Shown in pieces: positions 19,755-21,623 of a stretch of 64,000 nt of DNA. The notes beneath the pieces were generated by a model that was not told where the DNA came from, searched no databases, and saw only the letters and a list, made by a program, of their open reading frames with translations. Where the stretch lies: contig NZ_FOQH01000003.1 of the NCBI RefSeq assembly GCF_900113695.1, positions 124,001 through 188,000 of the forward strand. Direction: 5' to 3'. The translations under genes and the position numbers were made by a program. The DNA comes from Albimonas pacifica. Lineage in GTDB: Bacteria > Pseudomonadota > Alphaproteobacteria > Rhodobacterales > Rhodobacteraceae. How positions within the stretch are numbered: the first letter of the stretch is position 1; each line of letters opens with the position of its first letter.

Positions 19755-20027
19755 ATGCTCGACGACGACGACAACGATTTCTCGACCACCACCGTCTCGG
19801 CCGGCCAGCTTCGCGCCATCGTCGAGCGCATCGAGCGCCTGGAGGAGGAGAAGAAGGAGGTCTCGGAGCAGATCAAGGAGGTCTATGCCGAGGCCAAGGG
19901 CAACGGCTTCGACGCCAAGACCCTCCGCAAGATAGTGGCCCTGCGCAAGAAGAAGCCCGAGGAGCGCTCCGAGGAGGAGGCGATGCTCGAGCTCTACATG
20001 AACGCGCTGGGGATGCTGCCGGGCTGA
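19755..20027 (+). CDS. gapR: GapR family DNA-binding protein (DUF2312)
   Basis: 90-aa nucleoid-associated protein typical of alphaproteobacteria; in Caulobacter GapR binds overtwisted AT-rich DNA ahead of forks and RNA polymerase. The whole family pattern is present: [58 protein letters not shown] and a C-terminal [11 protein letters not shown]. The first half is a charged coiled coil. Weak ribosome-binding site (GGAAAG). Followed by a strong terminator at 20078-20107. Confidence 0.93.
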
Positions 20028-20077: not shown

Positions 20078-20107
20078 GGGCGCGCGGCATGCGCGCCCTT
20101 TCTCTTT
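20078..20107 (+). terminator. terminator after gapR
   Basis: An 8-bp stem, 20078-20085 (GGGCGCGC) with 20091-20098, loop GGCAT, followed by TTTCTCTTT. A smaller GGCGCC hairpin lies just before it at 20052-20067. Confidence 0.8.
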
Positions 20108-20145: not shown

Positions 20146-20769
20146 ATGACCCGCACCCGCGGCCTGATCATCGGCGCCATCGCCATGACGGCGACCGTCG
20201 TCGCCTCCAACATTCTCGTGCAGCACCTGCTGGGCGATTGGCTGACCTGGGGGGCGCTGAGCTATCCGGTCGCCTTCCTGGTCACCGACCTGACCAACCG
20301 CGCGCTGGGCGCGAAGGCCGCCCGCCAGGTGGTGCTGGCGGGCTTCGCCGCCGGCGTCGTCTGCTCGCTGGTCGCGGCGGGATTCGGGGCCACCACGCTG
20401 CGCATCGCCGCCGGATCGGGGCTGGCCTTCCTGGTGGCGCAGATGCTTGACGTCGGCGTCTTCGACCGCCTGCGGGGCGAGAGCTGGTGGCGTGCGCCGC
20501 TGGTCTCCTCGCTGGTCGGCTCGGCGGCGGACACGGCGATCTTCTTCTCGGTGGCCTTCGCGACCGTGTTCACGCCGCTGGTCCCCTGGGACGACGTCTC
20601 CTGGGCGAACGAGATGGTCCCGGTGCTGGGCGTGGGCCGCGAGGCGCCGCTGTGGGTCAGCCTGGCGCTCGCCGACTTCGCGGTGAAGATGGCGCTGGCC
20701 CTGCTGGCGCTGGTCCCGTTCCGCGCGGCGGTGGCGCTGATGGGCCCCTCCACGGCGCGGGACGCCTGA
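20146..20769 (+). CDS. queuosine precursor transporter (VUT/YhhQ family)
   Basis: 207-aa inner-membrane protein of about six segments that imports preQ0/preQ1-type precursors for tRNA queuosine synthesis. Family marks: ATVVASNILVQHLL, SYPVAFLVTDLTNRALGAKAARQVV and FLVAQMLDVGVFDRLRGESWWRAPLVSSLVGSAADTAIFFSVAF. No preQ1 riboswitch is obvious in the 118 bp upstream. Alone between two terminators unless it is cotranscribed with the 18-codon gene 110 nt downstream. Confidence 0.9.
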   Translation: MTRTRGLIIGAIAMTATVVASNILVQHLLGDWLTWGALSYPVAFLVTDLTNRALGAKAARQVVLAGFAAGVVCSLVAAGFGATTLRIAAGSGLAFLVAQMLDVGVFDRLRGESWWRAPLVSSLVGSAADTAIFFSVAFATVFTPLVPWDDVSWANEMVPVLGVGREAPLWVSLALADFAVKMALALLALVPFRAAVALMGPSTARDA

Positions 20770-20864
20770 CCGCGGGGCGGCTCACGATCGGCGTGATCCT
20801 CCGAATTTTTCTCTGGACCGTCGAGGCATGCGGCGGCATGCTCGTGTTCGAGTTCAACTGCAGG

Positions 20865-20879
20865 AAAGGAGGTGATCCA
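20865..20879 (+). promoter_or_regulatory. 15-nt ribosome-binding site complementary to the 16S rRNA tail
   Basis: AAAGGAGGTGATCCA pairs without a break to the conserved TGGATCACCTCCTTT 3' end of 16S rRNA (known sequence). Most genes here show only 4-7 complementary bases. Confidence 0.8.
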
Positions 20880-20936
20880 ATGTCGAGTGATACGTTGGAG
20901 CTGAAGGTCGGGTTCACGTTCGAGGTGATCGCCTAA
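20880..20936 (+). CDS. candidate 18-codon small protein with extreme Shine-Dalgarno
   Basis: Not recognised. ATG-18 codons-TAA encodes MSSDTLELKVGFTFEVIA, acidic with a hydrophobic C-terminus. The case for translation is the site AAAGGAGGTGATCCA at 20865-20879, with GGAGG 7 nt from the ATG. It is complementary to almost the whole 3' tail of alphaproteobacterial 16S rRNA and is the longest such match I see in the window. An in-frame ATG at 20838 would give 32 aa, but lacks a site. After the stop, CCTCCTTTTCC (20944-20954) can pair with GGAAAGGAGG of the ribosome-binding site, and a strong terminator ends the unit at 21045. Could be a leader peptide, a small protein or a precursor peptide; or the RNA itself may be the product. 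Confidence 0.5.
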   Translation: MSSDTLELKVGFTFEVIA

Positions 20937-20943
20937 GGGGCAG

Positions 20944-20954
20944 CCTCCTTTTCC
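20944..20954 (+). promoter_or_regulatory. CU-rich tract complementary to the upstream ribosome-binding site
   Basis: CCTCCTTTTCC starts 7 nt after the stop of the 18-codon frame. Its reverse complement GGAAAAGGAGG differs from 20863-20872 (GGAAAGGAGG) by one extra A. It could sequester the site in cis, or act as an anti-Shine-Dalgarno motif in trans. Inference from sequence only. Confidence 0.45.
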
Positions 20955-21010
20955 GACGCTTCGGGCGCGAGGGGTTCAGTCCCTGCCCGCCTGAGGCTCC
21001 ACGGCTCACG

Positions 21011-21045
21011 GGACCGCGGCGCAAGCCGCGGTCCTTCCGTTTTTT
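21011..21045 (+). terminator. very strong terminator with GCAA tetraloop
   Basis: A perfect 10-bp stem, 21011-21020 (GGACCGCGGC) with 21025-21034, GNRA-type GCAA loop, then TTCCGTTTTTT. Closes the transcript with the 18-codon frame and separates it from arfB. Confidence 0.9.
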
Positions 21046-21197: not shown

Positions 21198-21623
21198 ATG
21201 CTGCGCATCACCGACGCCGTCTCCATCGCCGACTGGGAGCTGACCGAGCAGTTCACCCGCGCCTCCGGGCCCGGCGGGCAGAACGTCAACAAGGTCTCCT
21301 CGGCCGTCGAGCTGCGCTTCGAGGCGGAGCGCTCGCCCCACCTGCCCGCAGACGCCAAGGCGCGGCTGCGTCGCCTCGCCGGGCGGCGCTGGACCGCGGA
21401 CGGGGCGGTGATCATCCGCGCCGAGACCCACCGCTCCCAGGCGCGCAACCGCGAGGAGGCGCGCGAGCGGCTGGCGGAGCTGATCGAGAAGGCCCTGCAC
21501 CGGCCCAAGCGGCGGGTGGCGACCAAGCCCACCCTGGGCTCGAAACGCAGACGCCTCGCCGCGAAGACGCGGCGAGGCGAGGTCAAGGCGCTCAGGCAGG
21601 CGCCGGGGTCCGATGAGAGCTAG
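21198..21623 (+). CDS. arfB: alternative ribosome-rescue factor ArfB (YaeJ)
   Basis: 141-aa peptidyl-tRNA hydrolase that frees ribosomes stalled on non-stop mRNA. The GGQ loop is GPGGQNVNKVSS at residues 24-35; the C-terminal tail (from about 100) is very basic (RPKRRVATKPTLGSKRRR), as needed to enter the empty mRNA channel. Release factors are excluded by size. A perfect 12-bp hairpin, 21552-21563 with 21568-21579, lies within codons 119-127. TTGAAG at 21124-21129 may be a -35 element. Convergent with the DJ-1/PfpI gene, 19 nt apart. Confidence 0.92.
   Translation: MLRITDAVSIADWELTEQFTRASGPGGQNVNKVSSAVELRFEAERSPHLPADAKARLRRLAGRRWTADGAVIIRAETHRSQARNREEARERLAELIEKALHRPKRRVATKPTLGSKRRRLAAKTRRGEVKALRQAPGSDES
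21552..21579 (+). other. 12-bp perfect hairpin inside the arfB 3' coding region
   Basis: CGCCTCGCCGCG pairs with CGCGGCGAGGCG across an AAGA loop. It begins 44 nt before the stop codon region and encodes part of the basic tail. No U-tract follows, so RNA cleavage or polymerase pausing is more likely than simple termination. Confidence 0.7.

Follow-up and report, generated by a model that had tools for sequence, protein, structure and literature searches.

Why would a reading frame of 18 codons be preceded by an almost unbroken complement of the 16S rRNA 3' tail? The question arises from a locus in the window, by which we mean the whole 64,000-nt stretch of the Albimonas pacifica genome that was analyzed (contig NZ_FOQH01000003.1, positions 124,001 to 188,000). 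A near-complete complement of this kind is odd given that 75.4% of protein genes in Caulobacter are reported to have no Shine-Dalgarno site (PMC4117421). The original prediction was of either a dedicated, highly expressed gene for a small peptide or a dual-function RNA in which the ribosome-binding site and a downstream anti-site form a switch. Judged by its sequence, the locus is instead a small RNA gene that stands alone and is distantly related to the Rfam family RF01867 (CC2171, a Caulobacter small RNA). We propose, and give it an even chance of being right, that this small structured RNA captures 30S ribosomal subunits and is opened by the translation of a peptide that is itself unimportant. 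The features on which this proposal draws are collected in Table 1; loci and genomes are referred to by L and G numbers, respectively.

Table 1. Features of the element and its immediate neighbors, in window coordinates.
Feature	Positions	Strand	Basis
Entire element, a diverged RF01867 (CC2171) relative; transcript predicted at about 190 nt	20856..21045	+	RF01867 match, fold z-score
Short 5' end, at which the transcript probably starts; relatives have a CAACAA-like sequence here	20856..20863	+	Base conservation in 161 loci
Tract complementary to the 16S rRNA 3' tail, through the A of the start codon	20864..20880	+	Sequence, pairing energy, conservation
Reading frame of 18 codons; open in relatives, with a hardly conserved peptide	20880..20936	+	ORF list, pN/pS, frame-length test
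P1 5' strand, within codons 3-8 (20887-20890, 20893-20895, 20897-20902)	20887..20902	+	Minimum-energy fold, family covariation
CCTCCTTTTCC, the lineage's cis anti-Shine-Dalgarno	20944..20954	+	10-nt complement to the tract
P1 3' strand, abutting the terminator (20995-21000, 21001-21003, 21006-21009)	20995..21009	+	Minimum-energy fold, covariation
Intrinsic terminator with GCAA loop and T-run	21010..21045	+	Terminator scan
Neighbor: arfB-like release factor with GGQ motif	21198..21623	+	ORF, neighbor survey
Neighbor: VUT/queuosine-precursor-transporter-like gene, upstream	20146..20769	+	Named by eye

Direct reading bore out the anatomy that was first proposed. The 15-nt site AAAGGAGGTGATCCA at 20865-20879 matches the 16S tail, and G20864 lengthens the match; the tiny frame that follows, MSSDTLELKVGFTFEVIA, opens with ATG at 20880-20882 and closes with TAA at 20936, in agreement with the ORF list; CCTCCTTTTCC lies seven bases past the stop; and the terminator hairpin itself, whose GCAA loop is of the GNRA type, spans 21010-21035, with a T-run after it. 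The transcript probably starts near 20856, since conservation upstream of the tract begins about 10 nt before it in the 161 loci and the RF01867 match begins at 20856. No promoter for the element passed a simple scan of the window. Farther upstream, a second terminator-like hairpin, GGGCGCGCGGCATGCGCGCCC, is followed by a T-rich run (20078-20098), and a 90-aa ORF at 19755-20027 presumably resembles the nucleoid protein GapR (DUF2312).

The sequence GAAAGGAGGTGATCCA, directly 5' of the frame, is complementary to the 16S tail as far as the start codon. The predicted energy of the pairing, which runs from G20864 into the start codon, is -33.4 kcal/mol, compared to -12.0 kcal/mol for the strong ordinary site UAAGGAGGU, with letters that we take to be those of the 16S tail. 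A pattern search of the window's genome found no 16S tail, and two sequence matches in G000 were rejected as 16S rRNA on account of their coding-like sequence; of 17 genomes scanned by pattern, two yielded the 16S-like tail GGCTGGATCACCTCCTTTC. An A to G variant of the tract retains a G.U pair, and G154 carries both this variant and the 16S-like tail GGATCACC. A change in 16S rRNA accompanying the GTGGTCC variant was therefore not found, in a comparison that comprised one variant genome and in which 15 of the 17 genomes yielded no 16S-like tail by pattern.

The tract is unlikely to be a product of chance. The stricter pattern AAAGGAGGTGATCCRNTG has a single match in the genome of 6.0 Mb, compared to about 0.001 expected per genome at equal base frequencies, and the relaxed pattern AAAGGAGGTGRTCYRNTG, which combines the tract with the start codon, is present in 146 of 198 Rhodobacteraceae genomes at one copy each, compared to none of the 198 when the pattern is reversed. 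Across the class, AAAGGAGGTGATCCRNTG was found in 50 of 385 genomes, again at one copy each; the respective patterns had no match in the remaining 52 family genomes and 335 class genomes. A scan of named genomes returned at least 116 stretches, at least 100 of them alphaproteobacterial by title, and the matches listed include Sphingomonas, Novosphingobium, Bradyrhizobium, Methylobacterium, Mesorhizobium, Brevundimonas and Ruegeria. A set of 161 distinct loci was picked by exact tract, so that conservation of the tract itself is unreadable from them.

Outside the class, AAAGGAGGTGATCCRNTG was matched only in the seed itself among 229 genomes in the class to which a Nitrosomonadales seed belongs; among 199 genomes in the phylum of a Phycisphaerales seed it was matched in 5, counting the seed. 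The non-class matches have short frames and, by eye, mostly a terminator, and four loci (L102, L147, L148, L159) look by eye like chance or coding matches. Two Myxococcota-type loci, L121 and L146, have the same tract, and both their frames share YTAGEVV(R/H)F. The same tract is found with short frames in the Planctomycetota loci L071, L076, L205 and L206, several of which have a CGACGG-like motif 3' of the stop. It is possible that the Myxococcota-type and Planctomycetota loci represent separate families of the same design.

The original prediction did not recognize the peptide; at the RNA level, the locus has a remote match. The whole RF01867 model (positions 1-159) aligns to 20856-21035 with 33.3 bits and an E value of 1.5e-5 when the short stretch is searched; genome-wide the E value is 5.8e-5, and the locus is the sole match in its genome at E 0.01. 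The gathering score of RF01867 is 75 bits, and in a scan of the window no Rfam family reaches its own gathering score. By that cut-off the window locus is a non-member; its sequence, its structure and the arrangement of its parts mark it, on our reading, as a diverged relative: the 5' CAACAA block, GAAAGGAGGUGAUCC forming a 16S-complementary 5' tract directly before RUG, the outer long-range helix and the 3' terminator hairpin are all present. It differs from the family, apart from its score, in its cis anti-Shine-Dalgarno, its arfB neighbor and a frame that is 18 codons long throughout the window's group, as that group is defined here. Two of 20 loci from relatives, representing the same element, pass the gathering score (L039, 79.7 bits; L043, 76.3 bits).

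RF01867 was matched at E 0.01 or better in 69 of 289 class genomes, including two (G277, G326) that match through the terminator part only, and 9 genomes pass the gathering score. Ten of the 69 have two or three matches at this threshold, so the single copy per genome described above holds for the pattern. For example, G048 has two RF01867-like copies, one at C1:805104-805255 (L185; MSHC-type, 68.9 bits) and the other at C1:2921849-2922077 (34.6 bits). Among the 30 best RF01867 loci, AAAGGAGGTGRTC is kept in all 30, where loci on the opposite strand were read by eye and the model itself favors AAAGGAGGTGRTC. Of 14 control genomes, that of Caulobacter vibrioides passes, and Deinobacterium chartae, which lies outside the class, gives a weak match below the cut-off. 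At E 1, seven of nine tract-carrying non-class genomes match, weakly and partly through the tract alone, as do 6 of the 14 controls. In a Mesorhizobium screen RF01867 is named MH_s33; it has a table entry that we read as a 215-nt sequenced transcript and is not seen among the Northern blots in the available portion of that report (PMC5596092). Rfam 15 is described as having added one covarying pair to the family (PMC11701678). The portions of these two publications that name RF01867 mention neither the 16S match nor the frame, and a literature search on the letters of the tract and on small RNAs linked to the 16S tail found, in the excerpts it returned, no account of such an element.

The reading frame is kept open in relatives and the peptide is hardly kept. 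Frame tests excluded 12 of the 161 loci as outside the class by title (L071, L072, L076, L084, L086, L102, L121, L146, L147, L148, L159, L162) and L063 for too little flank. Of the 149 class loci, three are titled "Proteobacteria" alone; an 80% ungapped-identity cut left 131 representatives, among which relatives that differ by indels are counted separately because the cut is ungapped. All 131 frames have at least 14 codons, with a median of 22; 125 have at most 31 codons and 6 extend beyond 32. The other two frames behave differently: of the 126 representatives with a reachable stop in frame +1, 39% terminate before codon 13 and 32% past codon 32, and for the 120 with one in frame +2 the corresponding values are 48% and 26%. 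The ratio pN/pS from codon 6 onward was 0.79 in 34 Rhodobacteraceae-type frames, 1.31 in 23 Sphingomonas-type frames, 1.03 and 1.08 in groups of 9 and 7, and 1.23 in a fifth group of three equal-length frames, where the groups, like those in the anti-site and neighbor surveys, were formed by peptide shape and not by taxonomy (L022, from a Rhodobacteraceae genome, sits in the "sphingo" group). No excess of third-position changes was seen in the pN/pS test, and peptide length and sequence vary from clade to clade.

These values suggest that the peptide is hardly selected, with little or no purifying selection. A dedicated, highly expressed gene for this peptide is thus not supported, and we rejected peptide homology as the conserved unit because the peptide drifts. 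We take a frame that stays open around a hardly selected peptide as evidence that it is read, with openness and length counting rather than the product. Relatives across the class keep the tract and the open frame, and hardly the peptide, which suggests that what matters is the holding or reading of the RNA by a ribosome. In three loci (L028, L042, L142) the frame encodes 56-59 aa and begins like a signal peptide, as if it had turned into a secreted-protein gene.

The frame also takes part in a structure. The segment 20856-21042 folds with a z-score of -4.16 relative to shuffles, and in the minimum-energy fold 20887-20890, 20893-20895 and 20897-20902 pair with 21006-21009, 21001-21003 and 20995-21000, respectively. 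This helix, P1, is the outer helix of the RF01867 model, and codons 2-7 covary class-wide with the segment before the terminator. In 122 members with a called terminator at least 20 nt past the stop, which were used for the pairing tests, P1 strands pair with their own partners at -12.94 kcal/mol compared to -9.76 kcal/mol with the partners of others (z -12.5); one of the two controls, in which codons 8-14 were paired with the 3' segment, itself deviated (z -3.3; the other gave +0.6), so that part of this z-score reflects shared composition or kinship. A stricter test on 33 distinct 5' strands gave -12.41 kcal/mol for own and -9.96 kcal/mol for swapped partners, a difference reached in 0 of 20,000 permutations, with the own partner ranked first for just 3 of the 33. 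In single-sequence folds of the 122 members, pairing of codons 2-8 with the pre-terminator segment has a mean of 0.24 and a median of 0.11, with 0.62 in the window, and the tract is partly free (mean unpaired 0.40). In the folds of L006 and L012 the site pairs with the 3' anti-site instead. In some loci, such as L062, a post-stop GGGCAGCCCTT appears by eye able to form an antiterminator with a terminator arm.

As for the proposed switch between site and anti-site, its components are present and its pairing is not favored. At least 7 nt complementary to the tract occur between stop and terminator in all 31 Rhodobacteraceae-type representatives, and the anti-site reaches p < 0.1 in 81% of this type compared to 0-16% in other groups; with the tract reversed as a control, these values are 0% and 4-11%. 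The anti-site usually lies shortly 5' of the terminator and, in the window, L020 and L065, soon after the stop. The 10-nt complement in the window has p 0.11, and folding of the site against 20944-20954 gives a modeled pairing probability of 0.003 in the window ensemble; the best fold with this pair has the same energy as the best fold with the site free (-90.9 kcal/mol each), and the minimum is -95.5 kcal/mol. The idea of a dual-function RNA therefore stands in its class-conserved site, open frame and lineage-wide anti-site, and falls short in that class-wide covariation belongs to another structure, P1. A site/anti-site switch is plausible as a Rhodobacteraceae trait, one that the folding model does not favor in the window.

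A frequent neighbor of the element was seen in one group only. In 33 of 39 Rhodobacteraceae-type loci, an arfB-like gene lies downstream in the same orientation, no farther away than 2.5 kb (0.6 kb in 30 of them); it is downstream in none of 144 other loci, ten of which have less than 600 nt of flank and one of which has arfB upstream. The 39 are what remained of the 18-aa group of 40 after removal of the Planctomycetota locus L205, and one of them, L138, has 241 nt of flank. In about half of 30 loci inspected, arfB starts approximately 13-36 nt past the terminator, with start codons chosen by eye; in the window the distance is about 150 nt. Just 5' of several arfB ATGs (e.g., L066, L100, L019) a TANNNT box is seen by eye, with no clear Shine-Dalgarno site, which suggests that arfB has a leaderless promoter of its own. 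The VUT gene is found upstream in at least 23 of the 39 loci, so plain gene order may explain the arfB linkage as well. No common next gene was seen among 20 loci of other families. A DUF188-like gene was noted by eye beside L045, L048 and L083.

We propose the following mechanism. The 5' end of the RNA would be built for 30S capture, with about 16 nt pairing with the 16S tail and ending at the start codon. A loaded ribosome would read a frame of mostly 14-31 codons and exit at the stop, before the 3' module. Loading and reading would compete with P1, giving two forms, one closed and free of ribosomes, the other open and held by a ribosome, since a 30S subunit on the start codon would cover the 5' strand of P1 and make ribosome and helix mutually exclusive. 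In Rhodobacteraceae, the added cis copy of the anti-Shine-Dalgarno would compete with the real 16S tail and so tune the element. We infer that the element is transcribed and translated here and that its two forms differ in activity; the output of the open form would most likely be trans-acting or a readout of ribosome availability. Schrader et al. found Caulobacter noncoding RNAs (106 new and 27 earlier) to be untranslated by ribosome profiling, which counts against translation of the element, and CC2171 is unnamed in the available part of that paper (PMC4117421).

Other readings account for some of these observations. The RNA could be a decoy whose overly strong pairing traps free 30S subunits and lowers Shine-Dalgarno-dependent translation in some condition, with the frame as a safe exit. 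The predicted pairing energy, the one pattern copy retained per genome and the hardly selected peptide would all fit, and the large share of Caulobacter genes that do without a Shine-Dalgarno site makes a selective effect of a decoy conceivable; nevertheless, a decoy would require very high RNA abundance and would leave the covarying P1 helix unexplained, and we consider it rather unlikely. Slightly less likely still is that the 30S subunit serves as a cap, shielding the 5' end of a trans-acting small RNA from the 5'-3' nuclease RNase J. The position of the tract near the 5' end is in favor of this reading, as is the GAAAGGAGG core that the tract has in common with STAB-SD. In Bacillus thuringiensis, a 30S subunit on the STAB-SD site is reported to block RNase J1 (PMC4113751). 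In a search with an E 1e-20 cut, in which some genomes were incomplete metagenome assemblies, RNase J was matched in all three Alphaproteobacteria, G000 among them (364-391 bits for the three, below the curated 400), and in both element-carrying Myxococcota-type genomes. None of 12 genomes from the Nitrosomonadales seed's class, seed counted, gave a match. However, RNase J was matched in none of seven tract-carrying Planctomycetota, which weakens the cap as a general explanation, and was not matched in the Gemmatimonadetes and Krumholzibacteriia carriers; a start codon and kept frame also come after the tract here, unlike in STAB-SD.

Regulation of arfB, with the element as a leader or attenuator whose read-through is set by ribosome supply, would suit the Rhodobacteraceae-type loci, in which the gene often follows the terminator closely. 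As a general explanation it was rejected outside the Rhodobacteraceae, where the absence of arfB downstream of all 144 loci leaves no family-wide regulated downstream gene, and it is doubtful inside, in view of the TANNNT box, the VUT linkage and the gap in the window; we regard it as improbable. Least probable of all, and very much so, is a small-protein gene with the 18-residue peptide as its product: the frame is kept open, the ratio for the Rhodobacteraceae type is slightly below 1 and three loci have longer frames with a signal-like start, but the ratios of 1.03-1.31 in other groups, the lack of a third-position excess and the clade-variable length and sequence argue against it. Ribosome capture by a structured RNA, opened by translation, is the reading that we prefer over these four.

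Parallels to known systems are partial. Like STAB-SD of Bacillus cry3A, the element has a Shine-Dalgarno-like tract near the 5' end that is capable of binding 30S subunits (PMC4113751); STAB-SD, however, does not initiate translation and guards a long mRNA, whereas in the element, an RNA of about 190 nt, the tract precedes a start codon and frame. With leader-peptide attenuators such as Sinorhizobium rnTrpL it has in common a short frame and a terminator, with release of a small RNA, whereas rnTrpL is described as leaderless (PMC10117765) and the element has no common downstream gene and no codon signal that was seen in its peptide. Small RNAs with an anti-Shine-Dalgarno loop, such as Bartonella BbsR14, also have a sequence tied to pairing with the 16S tail (PMC7717549), but they carry the 16S-like strand, in contrast to the element, which carries the complement and, in Rhodobacteraceae, both.

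RF01867 has so far been a name without a function, and it is unusual for a frame to stay open while its peptide is hardly conserved. We speculate, as a tentative view that we hold with less assurance than the mechanism proposed for the window, that the family and its relatives constitute a class-wide ribosome-capture RNA, usually present once per genome, whose frame would be selected for openness and a set length and not for its peptide. Such an RNA may gauge or buffer the free 30S subunits of the cell, and would have analogues of the same design in Planctomycetota and Myxococcota.
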